Below are positions 24,860 to 40,000 of a DNA stretch of 40,000 nucleotides, piece by piece. The stretch is from an uncultured SAR116 cluster alpha proteobacterium. Lineage in GTDB: Bacteria; Pseudomonadota; Alphaproteobacteria; Puniceispirillales; Marisalimonadaceae. The notes under the pieces are model-generated. The model was not told the origin of the DNA, did no database searches, and saw only the letters and a list, made by a program, of their open reading frames with translations. Location of the stretch: contig CACNWE010000006.1 in NCBI GenBank assembly GCA_902623995.1, positions 1 to 40,000 on the forward strand, in the 5' to 3' direction. Position 1 is the first letter of the stretch. Each line of letters starts with the position of its first letter. The position numbers and the translations under genes were made by a program.

Positions 24860-25564
24860 TCATCTTGCTAACTTTATAAAAATATCACCCATACCAGACC
24901 TCAATTCATTAATCGGTGTTCTATTTCTAATTGGGCAAAATCTACCTGTTATCTTATTTGCAGATATTTTCCTTAAATCTGATGGTTCGCAAAACTTAGC
25001 TTCGTGTAATATTCCAATTATTAATTTACTATCTTGTGTTTCAACTTGTTCGTAGTCTAATTCATTTCCTTTACAAAAATAATTCTTGTTAACTTTTTTA
25101 GGAAAATCTTCTTTTGTACAGGGGTTGTCTATAATTAGTGCATATACATCCTTGAAACCTTCTTGAAATTCTTTAGTGATCTTTTTAACCCGAGCATATT
25201 TCATTAGGTCGCAAACACAAGGCCAACAACATTTATAGTAGTAACCACAAATTTGTTTTTCAGTTTTATCCTCTTTTACATTTACAAATTGTGGGATTGA
25301 ACCTAATCCAATTAGTGACCCTGAAACAGCACAGTAATGTTTATTATACTCTTGAAACTCTTCAAAACTTTTATAATTATCAGAAATATGCTTGTAAAAT
25401 TTAGGTCCAGCTGCATTTCTATTTCCATCCGGAAATATTGATCGCCAGTCTTTGGATAAACTTTGGTAATATTTACCTTTGTCATCACTTGCGTAAGAAA
25501 TTACAATGTTCGTCAAAAAAAATACTAACAATAAACTAAGAAAATATTTTAACTTTAACATCAA
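24860..25564 (-). CDS. Secreted cysteine-rich protein with CCxxCxC cluster
   Basis: 234 residues with a signal peptide (about 1-26). It has ten cysteines: Cys78 (HYCAVSGS), Cys106, a tight cluster YYYKCCWPCVCDLMKY with Cys112, 113, 116 and 118, then Cys149, 164, 192 and 210. The cluster looks like a metal or redox site. His76 directly precedes Cys78, and His-x-Cys could contribute. I recognise no named family. It starts 1 nt after the stop of the FG-GAP/ASPIC gene, so the two are co-translated and probably act together in the periplasm or outside the cell. Confidence 0.72.
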   Translation of the reverse strand: MMLKLKYFLSLLLVFFLTNIVISYASDDKGKYYQSLSKDWRSIFPDGNRNAAGPKFYKHISDNYKSFEEFQEYNKHYCAVSGSLIGLGSIPQFVNVKEDKTEKQICGYYYKCCWPCVCDLMKYARVKKITKEFQEGFKDVYALIIDNPCTKEDFPKKVNKNYFCKGNELDYEQVETQDSKLIIGILHEAKFCEPSDLRKISANKITGRFCPIRNRTPINELRSGMGDIFIKLAR

Positions 25565-25565
25565 A

Positions 25566-26993
25566 TTAAATGCCCTTACTAAAAACGTAAGTTTTGTTTA
25601 ATTGACTAATTTTAAAATTATCAGATGATCCATCAGTCCATTTAATTGTAACACTTTTAACTTTTTCATCTTTTCTAAGCCCATAATGAGCAACGGGCTC
25701 CATTTGACATAAATAACCAGAACCAGCGTCAATGGTTTTTGCATGATTTCTCATATTTGTATTTAATATTACTGTAACCCCTCTTGCTGGTGCATTAAAA
25801 GCTGTTTTTGGTAAAATTCTTACGAACCTAAAAGAACTATCAATATTTGCCTTATATAATGAAAGTGGTTGTTGACCAGATTCACCGTGTGAAACTAGCA
25901 ATTCAAGGATACCATCATTATCTATGTCTGCTACAGCTGCGCCTGTACCTAATCCAAAAGGTTCTAATCCGTTGTTTAATTGAATTTGTTTTAATTTTCC
26001 ATCACTCAGAATTTTAAAAAGTTTATTAGGTTCGCCAATATTATTTACAAAAATTTCATCAAATCCATCATTATCAAAATCAGCTGCGATCACAGTTCTT
26101 ACTCTGGTCGGCTTTTTAAATGCAGCAGTTGCAACATCATTAAATTTATTTTTCTCATTAAGAAAGATCCTGTGTTCACCATTCCAATTACCACTAACAA
26201 TGTCTAATTTACCTCTATATAAAAAATCAGTTAGTGTCGTCCCTCGACCATTTTCAAATGTATCTTCAACACCTAGGTTTTCTGCAACTTCTTTAAATGT
26301 GCCATTTTCATTTATATAAAGAAAGTTTGGACCTCTTTCATTGGCAGCGAATATATCCATTTGATTACTTAAGATGTGGCCAGAAACAACTGCTCTTCCA
26401 CCGGTAATTCTGTTTATATTTAATAATGGTGCTTGATCTACTATATTTCCGTTTGTTAATTCATAAAAACGAGTTGGACCTCCATAATTTGCAACATAAA
26501 TTCCATACTTACCCTCACCATTTCTGTCAACACACACAACTGATCTTCCTGCTGTTAGATTTAAAGATTTTAAATTTTTATCAAGTTGAAATAAATCAGT
26601 TATATTTGTCTCGTTATCAAGTAATCTGTCAGAAAATTGTTTTTGACCACTATATGTGTCTGTATTGAGAAAATATAATTCTTCAAAACCATCATTATCA
26701 ATATCGCATGCGGCAACTCCAATAGTAGCTCTTTGATCATCAGCGAATAATTTATCACTATTTATATTTTCTAGTTTACCATTTTTATAAGATAAGATTA
26801 AATTAGGAAATCTAAACCCAGTTACAACAAACTCAAATCTTCCATCTTTATTAAAATCTGTTACTGAAATACCATAACTCAATCTTTTTGAGTTATTTTT
26901 GATTGAACTAGATATATCTTTGAAAAACTCAGCAAAAGCAGATTTGGACATTAGTATTATGATTACAATAATTATTGATTTCATGATTTTCAT
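25566..26993 (-). CDS. CRTAC1-like FG-GAP/VCBS repeat protein with ASPIC/UnbV domain
   Basis: A secreted protein of 475 residues with a signal peptide (about 1-21). It has at least four FG-GAP-type calcium-loop repeats: DFNKDGRFEF (46-55), DIDNDGFEEL (97-106), DFDNDGFDEI and DIDNDGILEL, spread through the first 370 residues in a beta-propeller arrangement. The C-terminal ASPIC/UnbV domain is seen as ARGVTVILNT, GSGYLCQMEPVAHYGL and VTIKWTDGSSDNF. Such proteins resemble vertebrate CRTAC1 and have surface or adhesive roles that remain undefined. A second in-frame ATG lies three codons on. The Cys-rich gene follows directly. Confidence 0.87.
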   Translation of the reverse strand: MKIMKSIIIVIIILMSKSAFAEFFKDISSSIKNNSKRLSYGISVTDFNKDGRFEFVVTGFRFPNLILSYKNGKLENINSDKLFADDQRATIGVAACDIDNDGFEELYFLNTDTYSGQKQFSDRLLDNETNITDLFQLDKNLKSLNLTAGRSVVCVDRNGEGKYGIYVANYGGPTRFYELTNGNIVDQAPLLNINRITGGRAVVSGHILSNQMDIFAANERGPNFLYINENGTFKEVAENLGVEDTFENGRGTTLTDFLYRGKLDIVSGNWNGEHRIFLNEKNKFNDVATAAFKKPTRVRTVIAADFDNDGFDEIFVNNIGEPNKLFKILSDGKLKQIQLNNGLEPFGLGTGAAVADIDNDGILELLVSHGESGQQPLSLYKANIDSSFRFVRILPKTAFNAPARGVTVILNTNMRNHAKTIDAGSGYLCQMEPVAHYGLRKDEKVKSVTIKWTDGSSDNFKISQLNKTYVFSKGI

Positions 26994-30760: not shown

Positions 30761-30934
30761 TAACCTGACGACTGATAAATATGATGGTTGGTATAACTAA
30801 ACTCCTATTAGGCTTAAAACACAAAAAACCCAAAAACCAAAGTTTTTGAGGGTGATCTAAGTCATTGATTTTATTAATATAGTTGGTTGCAGGGGTAGGA
30901 TTTGAACCTACGACCTTCAGGTTATGAGCCTGAC
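30761..30934. repeat. Direct repeat copy 1 (attachment-site remnant)
   Basis: An imperfect direct repeat of the block at 39490-39642. Shared elements in order: AACCTGAC(G/A)AC, GGTTGG(T/C)ATAA, a terminator hairpin, TGATCTAA(G/A)TCATTGATTT, ATATAGTTGGTTGC, and the 3' half of an initiator tRNA ending at the anticodon stem (GAGCCTGAC on the plus strand). Identity stops sharply at 30934, where the sequences differ (GTTTTTT against TCTTTTCC). This is the pattern left by tyrosine-recombinase integration at a tRNA 3' end with crossover at the anticodon region. Confidence 0.82.
30822..30853 (-). terminator. tRNA-associated terminator, copy 1
   Basis: On the minus strand a 9-bp stem (CTCAAAAAC / GTTTTTGGG with one U-G pair) and loop TTTG is followed by TTTTTTG. 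It lies about 30 nt beyond the CCA end of the tRNA fragment, as the native terminator of the tRNA gene would. The second copy keeps the hairpin with different loop and stem bases. Confidence 0.65.
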
Positions 30935-30935
30935 G
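30884..30935 (-). tRNA. Initiator tRNA-Met (CAU), 3' half only
   Basis: The minus strand reads CGTCAGGCTCATAACCTGAA, then GGTCGTAGGTTCAAATCC, then TACCCCTGCAACCA. This matches the 3' half of an initiator tRNA: anticodon arm TCAGG-CTCATAA-CCTGA, variable loop, T arm GTAGG-TTCAAAT-CCTAC, acceptor strand and encoded CCA. The sequence 5' of CGTCAGG is unrelated, so there is no D arm or 5' acceptor strand. It is a remnant, not a functional gene. The 3GC block of the initiator stem reads AGG/CCT instead of GGG/CCC. Confidence 0.8.
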
Positions 30936-30963
30936 TTTTTTAGGGATTTTAAGGGTTTTTTGT

Positions 30964-31024
30964 AATGTTTAGCTATAAGTTTAGCTATGAAATCTACTTC
31001 GCTTAAAATTTATAGCTAAACATT
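30964..31024. repeat. 15-bp inverted repeat with TAGCTAAAC units
   Basis: AATGTTTAGCTATAA (30964-30978) is repeated exactly in inverse orientation as TTATAGCTAAACATT (31010-31024), with 31 nt between. A third unit, TTTAGCTAT (30980-30988), sits in direct orientation to the left arm. It starts 30 nt right of the attachment remnant. Such spaced repeats beside an att core are typical of integrase arm-binding or excisionase sites, but a transcription-factor operator is also possible. Confidence 0.6.
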
Positions 31025-31104
31025 TTTAACCTGACGAACTTTAGTAAGGTTTATGTTGCCTGACGACCTCACTAATATTTAAATTAATATTATAAGGTGA
31101 ATTT

Positions 31105-31186
31105 AATATTATTAGTTAAAAGGAAATTAATTTGAAGAATTGATTTTAATAAAGAGACTATTAAAAAATATGAGTATAAATATTAA
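31105..31186 (+). pseudogene. Deleted copy of the mandelate-racemase-family gene (scar)
   Basis: The segment repeats both ends of the gene at 36931-38025. Left part: TTTAATATTATTAG, AAAAGGAAATTAATTTGAAG, matching the upstream region, ribosome binding site, TTG start and second codon of that gene. Right part (31139-31186): 16 codons giving IDFNKETIKKYEYKY and stop, identical in protein to its last 15 residues, with two silent changes. The junction is out of frame by one base and about 1,040 bp are missing. It shows that a second copy of this gene once existed at the left end of the island. Confidence 0.85.
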
Positions 31187-31432
31187 AATTATTTAAACTC
31201 AAAATTTTAACTAATCTTAACAAATTTTTTTGCTAAAAAAAAATGAAGTACCAAACTAGGGGGGAATGATACTTCACTGAATAGGAGGAATATATATTGA
31301 CTGTATTGTTTTTTTTCTGTTAAGCTAGGTATCAAAGTGATATCGAATAAAAAAACTAAATATTATTAAAATATCGACAATTATATAAGAATTTTATTAT
31401 TTTTTTATAAAGAGTTAATAATAATTCATATT

Positions 31433-32983
31433 TTAATTATTTTTTTGCATCTCGTTAATTATATTTGTAACACCTATACCAACGGCTTCGTAGGCATCAT
31501 ATATTTCATCTGCTCCTGAATTTTCTAATATTTTTGTATTTTCATTTGATCTTGTTGGGACTATGATTTTTCCTATAAAGCCGTATCTTCTAGCTTGTAA
31601 AGTAGACCAATTTTGTGCATGAAATTCTGGTAATGCGAGTACAATAACTTTTAATTTTCCAAATCTTAATTTAGACCAAAATCCTGGATCTTCAGCATCA
31701 GCGAATGCCACCCTGTTTCCTTCTGATAATTTATTTAAAGCTATTTCTGTATCAGCGTCAACGCCTACAACTTTTATACCTTTCTCAGTTAATTTATTAA
31801 AAATTGAACTCCCAATTCTACCCATACCGACAATCATGATCTCAGCTTCTCCAAAAGTATGTGGTTGCTCATCAGGATGATGTTTTTCTCTTTCAAATTT
31901 TATTAAAAAATTTTCAAGATATACAAAAATTTCATGAACATATTTATTCAACACGGAACCAATAATAAAGCTAATACATACTGACAATACTAGAATAGCT
32001 AAAATCTTTTGGTCTATTATATTTAAATCATACCAATATGTAGCAACTATGAGACTAAATTCTGAATAAGTTATTAATGAGATTGAAATTAAGAACGAAG
32101 AATATGCTCTCAAATTAAAGAAGATTAGTAGAAAAAATAAAGATAAAAACTTAACTACTAGCAATAAAATTAAGAAGAATGAATTTAAAATAATTTCCTG
32201 ATTAAGATTTAATTTCATTCCAAGAGATACAAAAAATGCTACTAGTAAAATCTCTCTTAAACTCCATATCTTTTCACCTAATCTATCAGCAAATTTAATG
32301 TTTGATAACATCATTCCCATTATTAGGGCACCTAATTCTCCCGACAAACCAAGTTTTTCAAACAAATATCCTCCTAAAAAGAGACCAATTATTACAGAAG
32401 TAAGCAGTTGTAATTCTTCATTTGATTGTAATTTTTCTAAAACGATTTTTACTATTGGAATGCATAAAGGAGTAAATAAAAGAAGAAGTGTATAAAATGA
32501 TAAATTAGTTTCATTTGTATAAAGTAATAAAAAAAGAGCTAAAATATCTTGAAAAATTAAAATTAAGATTGAGTTTCTCCCATGAAAAGAATTAATTTCT
32601 TTTCGATCCTCGAGAGATTTTGAGGCTATTACTGTGCTTGAAAAAGTTAAAATAATACAAAGCAAAATTTTTGCTTCGAAATCTATGTTTAAATTTAATA
32701 AAATAAAATAAATTAGTGTTATTAATAAAGAATGGAGAAAAAAAACATTTAAAAAGCTTAAACTTAGAAATGAAGAAGGTTTTACCTTTAAGCCTATAGA
32801 AAAAAGTAATAATTCAACACCAATTTTTGAGGGTATTGACAAAATTTCATCATTATCTGAAAAACTTATGTATGAGAAGAAATATCCAGAGGTTATAAAA
32901 CCAATTAAAATTGGTAATGATAAAACCTTGAAAATAAAACCAAAAAATAAAGCTCCACTCAACCAAATTAAGATCAAATCCAT
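31433..32983 (-). CDS. Kef-type cation:proton antiporter with RCK-N domain
   Basis: 516 residues: an N-terminal CPA2 antiporter domain with about 12 TM segments (1-345), including the FQDILAL segment (144-150) with the conserved Asp146, then a linker with HHPDEQPH and a C-terminal RCK/TrkA-N domain (371-516) with the nucleotide motif VGMGRIGSS (375-383) and acidic VDAD at the strand end. It exports K+ or exchanges cations for protons, gated by NAD(H) or a related ligand. First intact gene inside the island; transcribed towards the attachment remnant. Confidence 0.9.
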   Translation of the reverse strand: MDLILIWLSGALFFGFIFKVLSLPILIGFITSGYFFSYISFSDNDEILSIPSKIGVELLLFSIGLKVKPSSFLSLSFLNVFFLHSLLITLIYFILLNLNIDFEAKILLCIILTFSSTVIASKSLEDRKEINSFHGRNSILILIFQDILALFLLLYTNETNLSFYTLLLLFTPLCIPIVKIVLEKLQSNEELQLLTSVIIGLFLGGYLFEKLGLSGELGALIMGMMLSNIKFADRLGEKIWSLREILLVAFFVSLGMKLNLNQEIILNSFFLILLLVVKFLSLFFLLIFFNLRAYSSFLISISLITYSEFSLIVATYWYDLNIIDQKILAILVLSVCISFIIGSVLNKYVHEIFVYLENFLIKFEREKHHPDEQPHTFGEAEIMIVGMGRIGSSIFNKLTEKGIKVVGVDADTEIALNKLSEGNRVAFADAEDPGFWSKLRFGKLKVIVLALPEFHAQNWSTLQARRYGFIGKIIVPTRSNENTKILENSGADEIYDAYEAVGIGVTNIINEMQKNN

Positions 32984-33229
32984 ACAGTAATATAGAATTA
33001 AATGATAAAAAAGTGTAAAAATAATAACTCGCGTGACCTTTTTTTATATTTTGATGTTTTGTTTGATGAAAACTTCATCAATTCACAATGAAATTTATGA
33101 TATATTTATTTCTAAATTAGATTTCATTAAACTAATTAATTGCAAGGACAGAATTAACTTAAAGCTTTATGATTGATATCTAGACCTTATTTAGTTGCCC
33201 GATAAATTATTCATTTTTTTAAGATAAGA

Positions 33230-35134
33230 CTAGCTTTTAACTTCGAGAATTTTAATCATAAAATCATATAAACCAGGACCCTTTTTATCCACAGCATCCC
33301 TAATCGTGAGATGGATGTTATTTGGATTGTTTCCATCCAACATTATCATTTTCTGTCCATCTGTAAAATTAGCTTTAGACAGTTTTAAAGGGATATTTTG
33401 AATAATTAACCTCAAGCGCTCGATATTGGCTTTTAGCCATTTCTTTTCAAGATCTTCTTCCCCTGCTGGGAATATATATCGTCGGTCAACCAATTGTTTT
33501 ATGTGAAGAACACGCTCAGCAATTTCTTGAAGTTTTGAGTAGCCCCCAATTGCACTAACTGCGTCTCTAATGTCACGATTAAATCCACTGCCGTCAGCAC
33601 GTATCTTTGGGTTTGGGGGCATCGCATAAAATGGTAGTTGAGGGGGGGTGTCTGGCGAGTTACACTCATTAGCGACGCTAAGTATATGCTCAATTGCCTT
33701 AAATGATCCTGAATCCTTAAGCAGTGAGGCAGAAATATTCTGGCGTAACGTAGGCTTTAACAAACCAACTTCAACTAATTTTTCTTCAGCATTTGGGATG
33801 CCATTAGGGCGATCGACCGCCTTCGTATACTTTTCTGAAGTCTTCAGATTAAGTTGCTTTAAAGCCTTTTTTATTAGCTTTTTGCTAGTGCTAGATGGAA
33901 CTTTTCCGTGACGTCCCACAAGATAATCAGCAATGCCAGGATAAAGAGAATGGTATTTGTCACGGCCTTCTAACTGATTCCAGAGTGATAGTGCAGCTTG
34001 ACCAGTAGTATTTGCTGCATAAGGGGTAACTTGGGTTGGTTGACCAAGATCTTCTAAAATTTCTGCTTGCATTTTATATATTGCAATCTGGATTTGGTCC
34101 CAATCAGCATGATTACCATTCACTCCTAAAAGGCGTCCAAGATTCTCAACCAGTCCAGGTATTGATTTAAGTGTTGCAGACGCTCCACCGGGTGTACGTG
34201 CGTCATACATTGCTTCTACAAGTTCAGAATTATAACGTGACTCTAAATCACGATATTGAAAACGCAACCTATAAAGGGAAGACATACTAGCCTTTATAGC
34301 ATCGTTATTTAATTGTGGGGATTTTTTTGCAACTCTCTCATCAGGATAATTCCTTATAAGGTTTAACATCTTGTTCATGCTTGGTTGCGCTGTTGACCCT
34401 GAAAGAGCTGGATGTTGTACATCCATTGTTATGTCCTTATTTAACTCCACAGCTGCCAAAACCGCAGCCATGTAACAGACAGGGGCCTCACCATAAGTGG
34501 AGTGCGCATGAATGTTTACTTCATGGTCAGGAAAACGCTTATATAATGCTGATACAAGTTCATATACGAAATAGGCGCTTAATCTACCACTGGCAGATTT
34601 CAAATAAAATCCTTTATGTCCAAGTTCTACAAGTTCATCAGCAAAAGCAATACATCTGGCAACAGTTATGTTTGGATTATCTTCAATACAAATTGTTCCC
34701 TGTGCTATAATATCATAACCTGCACCTTGGGCTTCTGCGACTGCTTGAGCAACACCGGAAAGACATGCTGCATCATTAAGGCCGTGAAAATTCTGCAGGA
34801 TATTCATTCCCATACTAGCATACTCAAAAACTACCGCTCTTATTACATCATATGGTTGAGGCTCATAACCAAGTAGAAAATCTCCACGTATAAGGGCAGA
34901 TTGCCTCACCCCAAGGCTTTTAAAATGAAAAAGCAATTTTTCAACTTCTGCCCATTCATTTCGGCCTTTCTTGGCAAAAATATCAAAAAATGTACCCCCA
35001 CCTGTTTGTATCGCGTCAGTACCAATCAGATGTGCGGTTGGATAAGAATCTATGATTTCCTGTGCAGACGGGTTAGTTCCAAATAAAGACTGAATAGAAT
35101 CGCGTAAAACGTCTTGGAATTTTATTTTTGACAT
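33230..35134 (-). CDS. Orphan carboxyltransferase-domain protein (pyruvate carboxylase B-like)
   Basis: 634 residues, related to the carboxyltransferase part of pyruvate carboxylase and oxaloacetate decarboxylase alpha. Visible landmarks: FQDVLRDSIQSLFGT (6-20) with metal ligand Asp12 and Gln15, KSASG with Lys179 (the lysine that is carbamylated in the family), NIHAHST with His209 and His211, and SGSTAQPSM with Thr248. All catalytic positions are kept, but KDMAG has become KSASG. A PYC/OadA conserved region follows (about 300-440). The C-terminus lacks the biotinyl MKM motif and no biotin carboxylase gene is nearby, so a carrier must come from elsewhere. The last 190 residues are unassigned. 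Base composition is clearly less AT-rich than that of its neighbours. Confidence 0.8.
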   Translation of the reverse strand: MSKIKFQDVLRDSIQSLFGTNPSAQEIIDSYPTAHLIGTDAIQTGGGTFFDIFAKKGRNEWAEVEKLLFHFKSLGVRQSALIRGDFLLGYEPQPYDVIRAVVFEYASMGMNILQNFHGLNDAACLSGVAQAVAEAQGAGYDIIAQGTICIEDNPNITVARCIAFADELVELGHKGFYLKSASGRLSAYFVYELVSALYKRFPDHEVNIHAHSTYGEAPVCYMAAVLAAVELNKDITMDVQHPALSGSTAQPSMNKMLNLIRNYPDERVAKKSPQLNNDAIKASMSSLYRLRFQYRDLESRYNSELVEAMYDARTPGGASATLKSIPGLVENLGRLLGVNGNHADWDQIQIAIYKMQAEILEDLGQPTQVTPYAANTTGQAALSLWNQLEGRDKYHSLYPGIADYLVGRHGKVPSSTSKKLIKKALKQLNLKTSEKYTKAVDRPNGIPNAEEKLVEVGLLKPTLRQNISASLLKDSGSFKAIEHILSVANECNSPDTPPQLPFYAMPPNPKIRADGSGFNRDIRDAVSAIGGYSKLQEIAERVLHIKQLVDRRYIFPAGEEDLEKKWLKANIERLRLIIQNIPLKLSKANFTDGQKMIMLDGNNPNNIHLTIRDAVDKKGPGLYDFMIKILEVKS

Positions 35135-35459
35135 AGCAAATTTCTCAATATCAGTAGCAGTGTCAGTTTACTAAAGTACAAAATAGAAGTATGAATACGA
35201 CCATTTTTAAGTTCTGTTTTTAACTTTTGAAAATTGAAACTTTAAACTAAAGTCTAGTCTTCATAAATATTATAGTTAGGTAAAGGTGTACTTAAAACAA
35301 CAACAAGCCTAATTATCTGACAAATTCATAAATCTGTTAATAAAGTGAGCAATATTTTAGTAAATTGTCTAAAATCAGCGATTAAATCTAGAAAGCTTTT
35401 CCAGGTTTATTTTATGATGATTTGAAGGAGTTGGTTTTTATATAAATTTAATTTTAATA
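35135..35459. other. Intergenic region without visible gene
   Basis: 325 nt of divergent intergenic DNA between the carboxyltransferase and NTF2-like genes. It should contain both promoters. I see no hairpin with a U-tract, no repeat and no ORF of note. Confidence 0.5.
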
Positions 35460-35471
35460 ATGGAGCCCAAT

Positions 35472-35909
35472 ATGAATAAAAAAAATGATGATGATAAGTT
35501 AGCTGTTCAAAGTTTATACAATTATGTAACTTTATTTAATGAAAAAAATAAGGATAAAATTTTAGACTGTCTTCATTTTCCACATATGGCTCAATCTGAA
35601 AATAACGACCCTGTAATTTATAATAATAAAGAAGAAATATGGAGTTATCTAAGTTTTCTCTATAAGAAATTAGAGACCGAGGAAAATTGGGATCATTCAA
35701 CATTAGACAAAGCTGAAATCATTCATAGTTCTAAAAATGCTGTTCAATGCAGTGTTGAGTTTAATAGAAGAGATAAGAATAAGAAAAGTTATGCAAAAGC
35801 AGTAGGTATATTTACTTCAACAAAAAAAAATGGAAAGTGGGGATTACAGTTAAGAATAATGATACCAGCTTCAGGCAATGTAACTTTGGCTGGAGCAAAC
35901 ATTAAATAA
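35472..35909 (+). CDS. NTF2-like small protein
   Basis: 145 residues. A helix pair with YNYVTLFNEKNKDKILDCLH (about 13-32), the short HFPHMAQSEN strand, a YNNKEEIWSYLSFLY helix and three long strands (AEIIHSSKNAVQCSVEFNRR, KSYAKAVGIFTSTK, KWGLQLRIMIPA) give the cone-like NTF2/SnoaL/DUF4440 pattern. The start at 35472 has GGAG at 35462-35465; the ATG at 35460 lies in front of that site. The reaction, if any, is unknown. It lies upstream of the aldolase gene by 200 nt. Confidence 0.65.
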   Translation: MNKKNDDDKLAVQSLYNYVTLFNEKNKDKILDCLHFPHMAQSENNDPVIYNNKEEIWSYLSFLYKKLETEENWDHSTLDKAEIIHSSKNAVQCSVEFNRRDKNKKSYAKAVGIFTSTKKNGKWGLQLRIMIPASGNVTLAGANIK

Positions 35910-36111
35910 GTCAGCTATTGATTATTTTTGTTCACTGTCGTCAACCACGTGCATTAGAAGCATGGAAAGGATTCGTAATGGGGCTAATTTACTTGACTGC
36001 ACGTTCTGGGGTATAAGGCATAAAGCAATATCAATATTGGATTTATTTATATATTTTAGTACCATAAGATAATTATCAAAAAATTAATAAATAAATTAAA
36101 CTATAATTCCA

Positions 36112-36888
36112 ATGAAGTTAGAAAATAAATTAAAAGAGAAACTATTAAATAAAAAAAAGGTTCTCGGTTGCTGGACAAGCCTAGATAATGAGATAACTTC
36201 AGAGTTACTTGCTCTAGTTGGATTTGATTTTTTGTTGATTGATCATGAACATGGTTATGGTGATGTAAAAGGCATAACTAGACAAATACAATCGCTCAAA
36301 GAAACTGAATGTTCCCCTTTGGTAAGAATGCCAAAAAGTGACGAGGTGTATGTAAAGAAAACTTTAGATACTGGGGTAAATAGTCTGATGTTTCCATTAG
36401 TAAATAATAAAAAAGAGGCTGAAAATATTGTAGAAATGTGTAGATATGCACCTAAAGGTTATAGAGGAATGTATATCAGCAGAGCTTCAAATTATGGGAT
36501 GAACATAAAGAAATATTATGAAACTATTGAAAAAAATTTGCTGATAGTTTGTCAAATTGAAACTTCTGAAGGTGTTTCTAATATTGAAGAAATATCAGAA
36601 GTTGATGGTATTGATATGTTGTTTATTGGTCCGATGGATCTCTCTACTAGTATTGGTAAGTTTGGACAATTTAGCGATCCAGTATTTATAGAAACAGTTA
36701 ATTTAGCAAAAGAAAAAATAATGAATTCTAAAAAGTTTTCTGGAATGATGCCCTATGGAAATTATGATTGGAAAGATGTGTTTTCACAAGGTTTTGATTT
36801 AACTACAGCAGGTACAGAACTTTCAATATTAAGAGATTCAGCAATTTCAATCTTAAAGGAGTTTAATAATTTAAGGATAAACAAATGA
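36112..36888 (+). CDS. HpcH/HpaI family aldolase
   Basis: A class II pyruvate aldolase of 258 residues. It splits 2-keto-3-deoxy acids into pyruvate and an aldehyde. The key residues are present: His47 in IDHEHGYG, Arg72 in VRMP, metal ligands Glu150 (QIETSEG) and Asp176 (GPMDLS), and the YAPKGYRGM loop (112-120). It lies 42 nt upstream of an enolase-superfamily gene on the same strand. Acid-sugar dehydratase plus this aldolase is a known pair for aldonate breakdown (for example rhamnonate), so a joint pathway is likely. The exact acid is unknown. Confidence 0.9.
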   Translation: MKLENKLKEKLLNKKKVLGCWTSLDNEITSELLALVGFDFLLIDHEHGYGDVKGITRQIQSLKETECSPLVRMPKSDEVYVKKTLDTGVNSLMFPLVNNKKEAENIVEMCRYAPKGYRGMYISRASNYGMNIKKYYETIEKNLLIVCQIETSEGVSNIEEISEVDGIDMLFIGPMDLSTSIGKFGQFSDPVFIETVNLAKEKIMNSKKFSGMMPYGNYDWKDVFSQGFDLTTAGTELSILRDSAISILKEFNNLRINK

Positions 36889-36930
36889 ATAAAACTAAAT
36901 TTAATATTAATTATTAAAAGGGAGATTAAT

Positions 36931-38025
36931 TTGAAAAAACCTTTAGTTAAGAGTTTGTCTGTTATTACTGTAAATGTACCTTTAAAAAGACCTATAGTTG
37001 CCTCATTAGGAACATTTGAATATTGGCCGTATATGCTAATTGAAATATCTTTAAGCGATGGAACAATTGGTAAAGGTTATATTGGTCCGTACTTAGTAGA
37101 TTATACTCAAACTATTACGTTAGCAATGAAAGAGCTTTTTAAAAATTTTCAAAATAGAGAAATTGCTCCTTATCAGTTTTATAATGAGGGTATGAATCAT
37201 TTAAGTTTATTAGGAAGATCAGGAATTGCACTTTATGCTTTAGCCGGACTAGACATTGCATTCTGGGATGCCTGTTCTAAAATATGTAATGAGCCATTAT
37301 GTGTTCACTTAGGTGGATCAGTAGATAAGGTTAAGGCATATAACTCCAGTGGATTATGGCTAGATGATCCCCAAACATTATATGATGAAGCATTGACTCT
37401 AATATCAGAAGGAAATTTTGATGCTGTAAAGGTTAGATTAGGTAGAAAAAAATTAGATGAAGACCTCAAAGCAATTGAAAATGTTAAAAAAGGTATTGGG
37501 GTTAATTCAGAACTTCTTTGTGATTTTAATCAATGCTTATCACTACCACAAGCAATACATAGGTTAAATGATTTGGATGATCAGGGATTATATTGGTTTG
37601 AGGAACCAATAAAATATTATGAGTTTGAAGGTTACAAAGAATTAAGAAAAAGAATGAAAACACCAATTATTTTAGGAGAAAACTTTCATGGTTATGATGA
37701 TGCTTTTACTGCTTTAAAAAATCAAATTGCAGATTTTATAATGCCAGATTTATTAAGAATTGGTGGTGTAAGTGCTTGGCTCAAAACTGCATCTATTGCT
37801 GAAGCATTTCAAATATCTGTTTCTTCTCATTTGTATCACGAAGTCTCATCTCATCTAATGCGCGTAACACCAACAGCAGGTTATTTAGAGTGGACTAGAT
37901 GGTCCGACATTATTTTAGAAGAGCCATATGAATTAAGTGATGGACATGTAGTAATACCTAATAAAATAGGGACTGGCATTGATTTTAATAAAGAGACTAT
38001 AAAAAAATATGAATATAAATATTAA
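36931..38025 (+). CDS. Mandelate-racemase-family enzyme, probable acid-sugar dehydratase
   Basis: An enolase-superfamily enzyme of 364 residues. It starts with TTG at 36931, supported by GGGAG at 36920-36924. Every active-site position of mandelate racemase is found at an offset of +3: Lys167, Arg169, Asp198, Glu224, Glu250, Asp273, His300 and Glu320. The only change is Lys166 to Arg, giving KVR instead of KxK. The three metal ligands (Asp198, Glu224, Glu250) and the His300-Asp273 dyad are intact, so Mg-dependent proton abstraction should work, most likely in a dehydration. A deleted copy of this gene lies at 31105-31186. Follows the aldolase gene directly. Confidence 0.88.
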   Translation: MKKPLVKSLSVITVNVPLKRPIVASLGTFEYWPYMLIEISLSDGTIGKGYIGPYLVDYTQTITLAMKELFKNFQNREIAPYQFYNEGMNHLSLLGRSGIALYALAGLDIAFWDACSKICNEPLCVHLGGSVDKVKAYNSSGLWLDDPQTLYDEALTLISEGNFDAVKVRLGRKKLDEDLKAIENVKKGIGVNSELLCDFNQCLSLPQAIHRLNDLDDQGLYWFEEPIKYYEFEGYKELRKRMKTPIILGENFHGYDDAFTALKNQIADFIMPDLLRIGGVSAWLKTASIAEAFQISVSSHLYHEVSSHLMRVTPTAGYLEWTRWSDIILEEPYELSDGHVVIPNKIGTGIDFNKETIKKYEYKY

Positions 38026-38084
38026 AATTATTTTATATGTAAATTAAAGAATTAAATAAATTAAAATAAATAGCGGAAGCAATA

Positions 38085-39446
38085 ATGTTAAAAAAACATC
38101 AAATAAGTGGTCTGATGGATCATCTCAAAATAAATAAAGCATTTATTGCTAGTCAATGTTCAAATGACATTGAAGATTTTTGTTCAGAATATCATAATAA
38201 GATCCTTGGTTTAAGCTTGGTGGTCCCAATTACTATTAACTCAAAAAAGTTTTCAGAGCTTGACCAAAAAATCATGGTCTTAAAGAGTGAGTTTGGCGTT
38301 ACAGCTAACTCAGTTAACACATTAAAGAATGAAATAAGTAATTTAGAAATTATTCAATTGAATAATTACGAAGCCCTTGCTTGGTCTGATATTTGTGAAG
38401 ATAAATCAAGTGAAACATGTGAAGCATTAATCTCATTTTTTAAGGGCTTAAATATAGAAAACTACTCTGTAAAAATAAATAATCAAAAAGGACAATTTGA
38501 AAATATTTCTTATAAAGTGATTGGTGAAGGCCCCCCACTTTTACTATTTCCATTTTTTTTATCTGCTAAACAATGGAACCCTATAATTCAAAAATTATCT
38601 GATTTTTTCACGCTAGTTATAATTGGTGGAAAAGATTTTGGAGCAATTCCTTCATTAGAAGATAGAGCAGAGTTACCTACTTATAAAGCAATGCTAGAAA
38701 CATTAGTATCGAATATGAATATCTCCAAAAACGGTAAAGTTTTAGAATTAGGTTGTGGCCCTGCTTCATTATGTAGACAAGTATTAAAACTTAGAAAAGA
38801 TCTGTCGCTGGTTGGTGTTGATATAAATGAATATTTGTTAACAGAGGGTAGTAAAATTGCTCAAGATCAAAATTTCAAAGTTAATCCTTTTTTTAAGAAT
38901 AATTCTCAACCTTCAAGATCAAATTTAAAACCTAATGAACTTAATTTGTCTTATAGTGATGCTACTGACATTTCATTTCCAGATAATTTTTTTGACGCAG
39001 TTTACTCAGTTACCGTACTTGAGGAATGTGATGCACAGAAATCAATTGCAGAAATCAAAAGAGTTCTTAAACCTGGTGGTGTTGCTGGAATTGTGGTTAG
39101 AGCACTAGATGCACCTCAATGGTGGAATATAAAAGTTTCAGATTCAGTTAACAAAATTATCAGTGTACCACCTCAAATGGTATCACCAAAAGGTGTTGCT
39201 GATATGTCTTTATATGAAAAAATAAAATTGGCAAATTTTAAAAATATTCTTTCATATCCCTTTTGGTTTACAGCTTCTTCAGGTAATAACAGTTATATAT
39301 ATGACATGTATTACGGGAGAGCACGACAACTCTTAAATAACAGGCAACAAGAAGAATTCGACAAAGAAATAAAAAATGTAAATGAAAAAAGTCAATCTAT
39401 TTTATCAGTGCCACTTCATTGTTGCATCGGATATAAGAAGAAATAA
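38085..39446 (+). CDS. Methyltransferase fused to two half alpha/beta-hydrolase segments
   Basis: 453 residues in three parts. Residues 1-130 look like the second part of an alpha/beta hydrolase, starting at the helix before the nucleophile elbow: LMDHLKINKAFIASQCSNDI, where an elbow G-x-S-x-G would be expected but reads ASQCSND, then LGLSLVVP. Residues 138-200 look like the beginning of another hydrolase: ISYKVIGEGPPLLLFPFFLS and AKQWNPIIQKL, ending before its elbow. Residues 200-453 are a class I SAM methyltransferase with VLELGCGPAS (219-228), Asp246 and LKPGGVAGI (328-336). The start at 38085 follows CGGAAG and nothing coding precedes it. Substrate unknown; the hydrolase parts look non-catalytic. 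Confidence 0.8.
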   Translation: MLKKHQISGLMDHLKINKAFIASQCSNDIEDFCSEYHNKILGLSLVVPITINSKKFSELDQKIMVLKSEFGVTANSVNTLKNEISNLEIIQLNNYEALAWSDICEDKSSETCEALISFFKGLNIENYSVKINNQKGQFENISYKVIGEGPPLLLFPFFLSAKQWNPIIQKLSDFFTLVIIGGKDFGAIPSLEDRAELPTYKAMLETLVSNMNISKNGKVLELGCGPASLCRQVLKLRKDLSLVGVDINEYLLTEGSKIAQDQNFKVNPFFKNNSQPSRSNLKPNELNLSYSDATDISFPDNFFDAVYSVTVLEECDAQKSIAEIKRVLKPGGVAGIVVRALDAPQWWNIKVSDSVNKIISVPPQMVSPKGVADMSLYEKIKLANFKNILSYPFWFTASSGNNSYIYDMYYGRARQLLNNRQQEEFDKEIKNVNEKSQSILSVPLHCCIGYKKK

Positions 39447-39531
39447 TAAATATTTAAAAAATAAATTTAAACTCTATTGATAAACAGAAAACCTGACAAC
39501 CGGTTGGCATAAATAATGAAAATTACAACAA

Positions 39532-39560
39532 GAAACCCCAAAACTCGAAGTTTTGAGGGT
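39532..39560 (-). terminator. tRNA-associated terminator, copy 2
   Basis: On the minus strand a stem CCTCAAAACT / AGTTTTGGGG (10 pairs, one U-G) closes a TCG loop and is followed by TTTCTTG. It corresponds to the terminator at 30822-30853, but the stem has changed in a pairing-preserving way (AAAAAC/GTTTTT against AAAACT/AGTTTT). Confidence 0.55.
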
Positions 39561-39590
39561 GATCTAAATCATTGATTTTATTGATATAGT

Positions 39591-39642
39591 TGGTTGCGGG
39601 GGGTAGGATTTGAACCTACAACCTTCAGGTTATGAGCCTGAC
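39591..39642 (-). tRNA. Initiator tRNA-Met (CAU), 3' half only, second copy
   Basis: The minus strand reads GTCAGGCTCATAACCTGAAG, GTTGTAGGTTCAAATCC, TACCCCCCGCAACCA. The anticodon arm and T arm match copy 1, but there is one extra C between the T stem and CCA, and no 5' half follows (the flank reads GCGGAAAAGA). A second degenerate att remnant, not a working tRNA. Confidence 0.78.
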
Positions 39643-39747
39643 TCTTTTCCGCAGAGTTAGGCCAATTATTAATCGTGGTTGATATAGTGGTTGGCATGAT
39701 TTGATGTTTGCTAATGAAATAGTTAATAATAAACTCTGTAAATTATT

Positions 39748-40000
39748 CTAATTAAGTGATGTGCATTTGTATTTAAAATCTTCTAATTTAAGATCTTTAC
39801 AGCTATCACCAACTCTTATTTCATCAAATAAAACAACAATATTACCTAAATCTTTACCATTCATATTTCTATCACCATACCTTGACCCTGTATTATATAT
39901 ACCCAAATCAATTGGGTCTCTTACAGCTGTGCTTTGTCTAGAAATACCCTTATAATCAAATTGTTTTTTACCATTAACCCATATCTTAAAAGAGCCTTTG
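39748..40000 (-). CDS. Polysaccharide-lyase-like protein, C-terminal fragment
   Basis: An open minus-strand frame runs from the window edge to a TAG at 39748-39750, giving 83 residues with no start inside the window. It reads KGSFKIWVNGKKQFDYKG, then DPIDLGIYNTGSRYGDRN, then NIVVLFDEIRVGDSCKDL, ending KYKCTSLN. The W-V-N-G-K...F-D-Y-K-G and F-D-E-I-R-V-G elements are those of jelly-roll polysaccharide lyases (heparin-lyase-like group) and related concanavalin-like sugar-binding domains. The plus-strand ORF at 39761-39955 is its shadow. It lies right of att copy 2, so it belongs to the next island segment. Confidence 0.68.
   Translation of the reverse strand, partial: KGSFKIWVNGKKQFDYKGISRQSTAVRDPIDLGIYNTGSRYGDRNMNGKDLGNIVVLFDEIRVGDSCKDLKLEDFKYKCTSLN

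Follow-up and report, generated by a model that had tools for sequence, protein, structure and literature searches.

The segment at positions 30919-39642 of the window, the 40,000-nucleotide stretch of DNA analysed here, is a discrete mobile cassette, one of a family inserted at halves of the initiator tRNA gene. It is very probably a non-autonomous, tRNA-anchored gene cassette, exchanged at an anticodon-loop core by a tyrosine recombinase that is supplied in trans. The preliminary description had reported direct repeats of 150-170 bp at its ends; these are present, at 30821-30940 and 39528-39648 and spaced 8,707-8,708 bp, but the length was a little generous, with 87-94% identity in blocks and 90% across a well-aligned part of about 121 bp. 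Both repeats contain, as it had also claimed, a leftward tRNA-fMet 3' half with a CAACCA end and then a terminator-like hairpin, and the sharp loss of identity that it placed at the anticodon stem is seen there, at the core TCAGGCTCATAACCTGA (30917-30933 and 39625-39641). The halves are identified as initiator tRNA because the intact tRNA-fMet genes of relatives sit right behind 5S rRNA. The features are listed below; the genes from 31433 to 39446 are the cargo of the cassette.

24860-26993, minus strand: conserved distal flank genes (f5, f4), found directly after the intact tRNA-fMet in G024
30764-30794, minus strand: right arm behind copy A, ATACCAACCATCATA with an outer TCGTCAGG (repeat motifs)
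30829-30850, minus strand: terminator-like hairpin behind copy A (hairpin search; z -0.9)
About 30884-30934, minus strand: tRNA-fMet 3' half, copy A, belonging to the DNA left of the cassette (repeat comparison)
30917-30933, minus strand: core A, anticodon stem-loop TCAGG-CTCATAA-CCTGA, the left-end crossover site (sequence junctions)
30919-39642, no strand: mobile cassette from core to core
30934-31066, minus strand: left arm of the cassette, type X, with TAGCTAAAC repeats and TCGTCAGG at 31030-31037 and 31059-31066; the same arm adjoins an integrase in G063
31111-31206, no strand: remnant of a second MR_MLE gene copy, 5' leader and 3' end with the middle gone (repeats D2, 90%, and D11, 83%, with 37978-38045 and 36910-36938)
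31433-32983, minus strand: CPA2/Kef-type cation antiporter with TrkA-N (above Pfam cut-offs, below NCBIfam cut-offs)
33230-35134, minus strand: OadA/pyruvate-carboxylase-subunit-B-like protein (matches below curated cut-offs)
35460-35909, plus strand: 149-aa protein with no Pfam family (Pfam search)
36112-36888, plus strand: HpcH/HpaI aldolase (Pfam, NCBIfam)
36931-38025, plus strand: mandelate racemase/muconate lactonizing (sugar-acid dehydratase-like) enzyme (Pfam, NCBIfam)
38085-39446, plus strand: SAM-dependent methyltransferase (Pfam, NCBIfam)
39492-39509, minus strand: right arm of the cassette, TGCCAACCGGTTGTCAGG (repeat motifs)
39536-39558, minus strand: terminator-like hairpin carried by the cassette (hairpin search; z = -2.1)
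About 39591-39642, minus strand: tRNA-fMet 3' half, copy B, the cassette's own half (repeat comparison)
39625-39641, minus strand: core B, the right-end crossover site, where identity to G063 ends
39643-39700, minus strand: left arm of the next cassette, type Z, with CCAACCA repeats; the same arm type adjoins an integrase in G003 and G014
39748-40000, minus strand: polysaccharide-lyase-like gene of the next cassette, cut by the window edge (cluster f7; f numbers, f1-f222, are clusters assigned in this analysis)

At least two elements had been proposed to stand in tandem, and this holds for the window cassette and the one with the polysaccharide-lyase-like gene starting at 39748; an f7 member in G001 matches PF14099, and Pfam gave no hit to the piece within the window. 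The segment had also been said to lack an integrase, and none was found among its genes in the ORF list or by Pfam and NCBIfam; the best candidate is found in other genomes, at a different tRNA. Defence cargo was considered and is not believed, as the matches to mad2 (the methyltransferase part) and to Pycsar-cyclase models were only remote. ARAGORN called no tRNA gene in the window, and Rfam scored copy B as a truncated tRNA. The source assembly (G000) has a third copy of the repeat at C4:102277-102411. The folding energy of the terminators is not decisive: many shuffles fold as well as the copy A hairpin, and that of the C4 copy has no advantage over shuffles at all (z 0.3).

Same-genus relatives, named SAR116 contigs among them, place these halves in a wider arrangement, in which the rRNA operon is closed by an intact tRNA-fMet and followed by arrays of cassettes. 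The gene order in G012 and G022 is a ClpB-like Clp ATPase gene, rRNA genes, intact tRNA-fMet, and cassettes. Across 36 regions from 27 genomes, 15 intact tRNAs and 74 halves were counted (with G035, the fetched regions hold 16 intact tRNA-fMet genes), and the 53 segments between sites have a median length of 2.5 kb. Each array cassette has a tRNA 3' half, often with a terminator and arm repeats. Terminators were found at 40 of the 89 sites, the rule giving none at the other 49, compared with 16 of 1,780 random stretches; TCGTCAGG lies downstream at 38 of 89 sites and in 32 of 1,780 random stretches. Sorted by eye, the arms make up four or more sequence types, a sign that more than one recombinase may be involved. 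The same cassettes recur in differing orders and at differing loci. For example, a CopC-CopD cassette of 1,388-1,411 bp, 87-93% identical between copies, is found in five contexts, including the first position after an intact tRNA, and the ppk (polyphosphate kinase) locus.

A split tRNA, in which these would be functional 3' tRNA-half genes and the spacing of genes between them incidental, is scarcely credible. The halves do show good sequence conservation and mostly keep the CCA end (67 of the 89 sites aligned, which were picked by their loop), but relatives own an intact tRNA-fMet, several halves are degenerate, and cassettes move between halves. Split-tRNA and tRNA-intron readings of the window were likewise rejected, with no complete tRNA at its halves and intact genes in relatives. 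The core chromosome had been expected to lie left of 30.8 kb, and a conserved flank does exist there (about 24860-26993), but the genes at 27-30.8 kb are variable in relatives. A search of the G000 assembly apart from C6 40001 to about 47512 turned up no intact initiator tRNA; from three position estimates we infer that it should lie right of 40 kb, with its core at about 40.88-40.92 kb.

Movement of the segment as a unit is best seen in G063, where the whole cassette (C6:5903-14637) is 98.97% identical over 8,737 aligned bases and ends at both cores. The locus there is the elongator tRNA-Met, tRNA-Met(e), unlike that in the window, and housekeeping genes of the two genomes (3.4 kb) are about 82% identical, with 84.6% for the flank at the tRNA-Met(e) locus. 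A further copy in G014 (C38) has 98.8% identity across 6,941 bp, or 80% of the segment; unbroken, the segment is whole only in G063 and present to 80% in G014. About 85% of it is found in G004 at 92-95% identity, split over three contigs, and its right 4 kb (95%) is joined directly to intact tRNA-fMet and 5S; the left end there is a contig end, so that synteny is readable on the right side alone. No relative was seen to combine an intact tRNA, all segment genes, and conserved synteny on the two sides, the pattern that would have argued against an insertion. The earlier proposal of site-specific, tandem, tRNA-targeted insertion is thus supported, and sharpened by the finding that the DNA between cores moves as a unit.

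Islands that target tRNAs are expected to have a fixed crossover place, which here is the anticodon loop, and an intact tRNA at one end with displaced 3' fragments as direct repeats, which is the case in relatives, the window having halves only. They are also expected to contain an integrase, and neither the window cassette nor any of the 53 segments does (BLAST of the segments, with 26 integrases from the genus as queries). Classical genomic islands or ICEs that brought their own integrase to tRNA-fMet and survive as tandem remnants after its loss are therefore improbable as an explanation: 48 of the 53 segments hold just 1-6 genes, and an integrase-free cassette recurs whole elsewhere at 99% identity. 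In favour of this rival, 27 of the 37 integrase regions that were examined also contain an intact tRNA (Arg, Val, Pro, Ser, Gly, or Leu), and a clear far 3' half of it is seen in three of the 37.

An orphan half at the ppk locus, far from any tRNA, has gained 10 kb by crossover within the anticodon loop; the right copy there in G009 has the loop CTAATAA instead of CTCATAA. Identity to G000 at this locus is 99.6% in G012 and 93-98% in G009, far above that of housekeeping DNA (84% and 83%), which indicates that homologous recombination also acts there. Such recombination between the 120-bp repeats, with no site-specific recombinase, could in principle shuffle the segments, as the repeats are long enough and flanks at ppk have been exchanged between species. 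As a general account it is nevertheless very improbable. The junctions in G009, G013, and G063 fall at the left repeat edge, in or beside the 7-bp loop, and those at an integrase end share about 16 bp of core or less with the tRNA-half site, presumably too short for homologous recombination. The G013 and G063 junctions speak against it, and it may still delete or invert cassettes at a later stage.

Exchange by a trans-acting recombinase has a candidate enzyme in f93, a tyrosine integrase whose gene lies at tRNA-Met(e) in 7 of 40 genomes of the genus, two copies being broken. It matches PF00589 and the phrog_1 integrase, and has what we take to be the catalytic R, HxxR, H, and Y of tyrosine integrases. 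In six of the seven copies its stop codon falls inside the core, and differing cassettes abut this end at the core, the window's own among them. Core A adjoins a tRNA half in the window and the integrase 3' end in G063; the copy A flank of the window and a 5.7-kb f19-f87 cassette each abut a tRNA half in one genome and the f93 end in a second one, and the change of partner falls at the core. The f93 integrase is likely to be the enzyme that moves the cassettes, judging from these junctions; the G000 assembly itself yielded no copy of it.

In the mechanism that we propose, a cassette as a circle would have one attachment module, comprising left arm repeats, the TCAGG-CTCATAA-CCTGA core, the tRNA-fMet 3' half, in many cases a terminator of rRNA-operon type, and right arm repeats. 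The recombinase would exchange this circle with another core at the 7-bp anticodon-loop overlap. Acceptors could be an intact tRNA-fMet, whose 3' half would be replaced by the cassette's own, a half already within an array, the orphan half at ppk, or the core that the 3' end of the integrase gene makes at tRNA-Met(e). Successive insertions would produce the order intact tRNA, cassette, half, cassette, half. In the assembled genomes, the cassette stands complete at two loci that have no relation to each other, each end at a core; a filled site can be set against an emptier one, with crossover in the anticodon loop; and cassette ends abut either tRNA halves or the end of the integrase gene. A circular intermediate and a route between cells are presumed, and the terminator would shield cargo from rRNA-operon read-through. 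A wider reading, a little short of probable, is that SAR116 has an integron-like form of gene capture assembled from tRNA parts. A single trans-acting integrase would offer its stop codon as the primary docking site, initiator and elongator tRNA-Met loci would share the TCATAA loop, orphan halves would be extra docking sites, and cassettes, often bearing a terminator, would stack harmlessly behind the rRNA operon, forming a genus-wide pool passed between species.

The finding of this package, 99% identical, elsewhere on the chromosome of a second species suggests that ocean bacteria trade small gene sets through tRNA-half sites. This offers streamlined ocean bacteria a concrete, testable route for exchanging packages of mostly one to six genes, with cargo for copper handling, transport, and sugar-acid catabolism. 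Since different cassettes dock at one integrase gene end, a candidate enzyme and its sites can be named, and the movement of tRNA islands that have no integrase becomes testable. Tolerance of so risky a site may be explained by its position after the rRNA operon and by the terminator that often travels with a cassette.

Tycheposons have a deep-branching tyrosine recombinase and hallmark genes. They were reportedly described in Prochlorococcus by Hackl et al. in 2023, with similar elements in co-occurring microbes. As described in the available text of PMC10872708, they resemble the present system in their marine oligotrophic hosts, tRNA targets (tRNA-Met included), tyrosine recombinase, nutrient-type cargo, and remodelling of genomic islands; integration at a set of tRNAs with adaptive cargo is found here too. 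The SAR116 cassettes differ in being short, tandem, often terminator-ended, and able to dock at an integrase gene 3' end. Additive flexible genomic islands are known from Ca. Actinomarinales (PMC7771536) and Alteromonas (fGI1, PMC4119200), and the last 20 bp of tRNA-Lys are repeated in Methylophilaceae fGI-2 (PMC10872708); the accessible parts of these articles describe no integrase junction, no orphan-half acceptor, no sharing of two tRNA-Met loci, and no cassette that lies complete at two places. Islander-type islands share the 3' tDNA fragment and, in the text available, an anticodon-centred crossover class of 2083 islands (PMC4383910). That resource accepts tandems only if every member has an integrase, and its table of 3919 islands has 125 tandems of two or more and four of three or more (PMC4383910, available sections), whereas the longest SAR116 arrays reach six sites in a row (G022, G034) with no integrase. 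Integrons are alike by analogy, with an array of exchangeable cassettes at repeated sites, an integrase acting in trans, and a site beside the integrase gene. The SAR116 sites are tRNA halves rather than attC, the integron site that recombines as a folded single strand, and f93 matches phage-type integrase families instead of the IntI type expected of an integron, scoring 48 bits against a cut-off of 220 with the NCBIfam archaeal-Xer/integron-integrase model. By title and abstract, in a search mostly short of the subscription literature, no paper was found that reports such a system in SAR116, and the main text of a SAR116 phylogenomics study (PMC8547437), as far as available, does not use the terms genomic island, flexible, or integrase. 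Related islands are already known, and the integron-like arrangement here appears to be a new variant.

The 8.7 kb had no match in phage and plasmid records searched in 'near' mode, and no relatives of f93 in viral contigs were confirmed. We make no claim of phage origin, host contamination being as likely an explanation of the IMG/VR matches. The pattern of the tRNA half was found in at least 120 IMG/VR stretches; among the 80 of these that were compared, 30 matches extend past the half, and 24 of the 30 cover most of the terminator. Short ORFs over the half aside, the only protein matches among these 80 are to f67 (96%, L261) and a 36% relative of f93 (L235).

The starts of two direct repeats, 30821-30940 and 39528-39648, are separated by 8,707-8,708 bp; block by block the repeats share 87-94% identity (90% across ~121 bp). 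On the minus strand each contains the core TCAGGCTCATAACCTGA, the remaining tRNA-fMet 3' half to CCA, and a terminator-like hairpin followed by T-rich sequence, bearing out the paired repeats of the preliminary description. A third copy lies at C4:102277-102411 of the same genome (G000, a 2.08-Mb draft that is 89% complete, in which the window is C6:1-40000). The exact 72-base pattern of half and terminator occurs in six stretches from named genomes, five from the SAR116 cluster and one from alpha proteobacterium SCGC AAA015-N04, and G000 probably belongs to SAR116 too. Searches of the G000 assembly outside C6:40001-~47512 turned up no intact initiator tRNA; at loci from tRNA searches of this genome, ARAGORN identified 28 different complete tRNAs, and the two with a CAT anticodon are both unlike the fMet of relatives. 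GC content is 30.8%, comparable to the value of about 30.5% for the low-GC SAR116 subclade (PMC8547437).

The cassette between the two cores (30919-39642; core A, 30917-30933; core B, 39625-39641) moves whole. It is 98.97% identical to G063:C6:5903-14637, over 8,737 aligned bases with 75 mismatches and four gap openings. Identity ends at core A, where G063 runs into the 3' end of an integrase gene, and at core B, where G063 has a different arm sequence (the repeats flanking the core). The G063 copy sits at the elongator tRNA-Met locus, flanked by the genes found downstream of intact tRNA-Met(e) in G000:C25 (84.6% identical). Between the same two genomes, 3.4 kb of the prmC-prfA-hisS-ispG stretch (names confirmed) is 82% identical and another 0.55 kb is 78% identical. 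Contig G014:C38 (6,941 bp) matches 30981-37920 at 98.8% along its entire length, and some match to the cassette is present in 32 of 40 genomes, often as sub-blocks or the half alone. In G003, a 4.26-kb part with Kef and OadA-like genes recurs at 97.2% identity, at the locus bearing the tyrosine integrase f93. In G004, ~85% of the cassette is present in pieces across three contigs (92-95% identity); its right end, core B, adjoins an intact tRNA-fMet and then 5S, and the cassette is therefore first in the array there. Block edges recur near 35441, 35968, 36896, 38032, and 38072, and 31111-31206 retains just the 5' leader and 3' end of a second MR_MLE gene, which points to an internal deletion; together these suggest that the cassette was itself assembled by fusion.

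A 106-bp query was run against 61 genomes and matches were counted by hand at E <= 1e-10. At least one match was present in 32 of 37 same-genus genomes (G000 included) and at least two in 27, with two matches in one of 24 genomes outside the genus (G038). Picked for having matches, 36 same-genus regions from 27 genomes contained 15 intact tRNA-fMet copies and 74 halves, with minority-strand sites (one of them an intact G035 copy) and a single elongator-type half excluded beforehand; G038 was also fetched and left out of these counts. A 5S motif lies upstream of all 15 intact copies, Rfam places 23S, 5S, and tRNA consecutively in G012, and the gene order in G012 and G022 is Clp ATPase gene, rRNA genes, intact fMet, and array. 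The G000 contig has this Clp gene too (ClpB-like, with its best model scoring under the cut-off), to the right of ~47512. The size of C6:40001-~47512 matches a cassette end, an intact tRNA-fMet, and an rRNA operon. The intact core would be at 40,922 by the lyase-cassette distance of G012, and at 40,905 (G012) or 40,879 (G022) by distance from the Clp gene, so that relatives predict it from both sides at ~40.88-40.92 kb. The comparison with relatives proposed earlier did yield an empty site: in G024, flank genes f4-f5 (24860-26993 in the window) directly follow the intact tRNA, with no half within the 9.3 kb fetched downstream.

Between successive sites (intact tRNA-fMet or half) lie 53 segments of 0.8-17.5 kb, with a median of 2.5 kb. 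They hold one to six genes in 48 cases, seven in two, 16 in one, 17 in one, and none in one, the last by the rule applied in this analysis. A BLAST search using 26 integrases from the genus found an integrase-like gene in 0 of 53, in line with the earlier observation that the window segment has none. Cassette contents recur and their neighbours differ.

Recurrent cassettes between tRNA-fMet sites.
CopC-CopD cassette, 1,388-1,411 bp: five segments, in G016, G013, G034, G001, and G031.
ATP-grasp / alpha-E / transglutaminase / proteasome-like cassette, four genes: alone between sites in G012, G020, and G009 (ppk locus).

Of the CopC-CopD cassettes (87-93% pairwise identity), that of G016 directly follows the intact tRNA, that of G013 occupies the ppk locus, and the other three (G034, G001, and G031) lie within arrays; the four-gene cassette is fused to other genes in G003 and G032. 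Further cargo includes multicopper oxidase with DUF4396, adenylate cyclase, ABC transporter, polysaccharide lyase, alpha/beta hydrolase, DUF1501 with DUF1800, and MMPL genes. A contig filed as viral (L261, IMGVR_UViG_3300040960_003247) carries a SAR116 cassette gene (f67, 96%) beside an fMet half, and may be packaged DNA or host contamination.

The ppk locus, with a confirmed polyphosphate kinase and an exopolyphosphatase-like neighbour below cut-off, has one orphan half in G000, G017, and G012, and three in G009, with 10.1 kb extra. The orphan half (G000:C4:102277-102411; L007:10277-10411) is found in several species (G000, G017, G012, G014, and G009). When G009 is aligned with a one-half site, the left flank is unaltered through GTCAGGCTCATAAC, and from AATAACCTGAAGG onward the sequence is again that of the original half, recognizable by its marker bases (AAAGTCAATG and the adjoining flank). 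The crossover lies within or next to the anticodon loop. In the three genomes compared, flank identity to G000 is 93-99.8%. Because identity at the locus (99.6% in G012, 93-98% in G009) exceeds that of housekeeping DNA (84% and 83%), it is also exchanged homologously, and is a hot spot of such exchange too.

The f93 integrase (329 aa), the one family tied to this system, is present in 7 of 40 genomes at >=81% identity, G000 not among them, and is broken in G019 and G063. In six of the seven copies the stop codon lies within the core (TTATGAGCCTGAC or close variants) and a 57-bp 3' part of tRNA-Met(e) lies upstream; the seventh (G032), on a contig beginning ~40 bp ahead of the gene, has no core after the stop. 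The elongator and initiator loops (ATCATAA vs CTCATAA) have six of seven bases in common. By eye, the cassette ends abutting the f93 core are of arm type Z in G003 and G014, diverged Z-like in G019, type X in G063, and of further types in G013 and G062. The copy A flank is nearly identical in the window and G063 up to the core, beyond which the two are unrelated, with the half in the window and the integrase in G063. Similarly, a 5.73-kb f19-f87 cassette shared by G009 and G013 (99.2% identity) terminates at a half in the former and at f93 in the latter. These two junction pairs are decisive for the joining of cassettes to f93.

The arm repeats flanking the core are of at least four types by eye. 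CCAACC occurs downstream of 32 of 89 sites (57 of 1,780 random stretches), TCGTCAGG at 38 of 89 (32 of 1,780), and terminators by a fixed rule at 40 of 89 (16 of 1,780); single terminator folds are weak in two of the three G000 copies. Since the arm repeats are both varied and enriched, several recombinases may share one core. At the level of sequence comparison, the results demonstrate that the units are bounded by cores, cross over in the loop, move between loci and species, and join f93. The enzyme would be f93, acting in trans, and the cassette would pass through a circular intermediate.

Tycheposons provide one system for comparison. Cassettes anchored at tRNA genes and bearing tRNA repeats are already described in Ca. 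Actinomarinales (PMC7771536), Methylophilaceae (PMC10872708), and Alteromonas (PMC4119200). Islander accepts tandems only if every member has an integrase (PMC4383910). The combination of an initiator tRNA behind the rRNA operon, orphan-half acceptors, two tRNA-Met loci sharing cassettes, and integrase-stop-codon docking was not found described in the literature listings searched.

Among the matches listed, PF00589 is present in 40 of 40 genomes. An intact tRNA of another kind is present in 27 of the 37 integrase regions examined. Integrases of 319-334 aa, 35-42% identical to f93 (L151, L154-L158, L162, L164, and others), start directly behind intact tRNA-Arg, -Val, or -Pro, apparently with one subfamily per tRNA. 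A degenerate fMet half marks the end of a tRNA-Gly-type integrase gene at G026:C36:4316-4889 (L132/L184), which makes this, after f93, another instance in which the 3' end of an integrase gene meets such a site. G000 itself has integrases beside tRNA-Gly, tRNA-Arg, and tRNA-Ser (C2:90411, C5:130489, and C9:67719; L172-L174), and other tRNA sites may therefore be occupied too.
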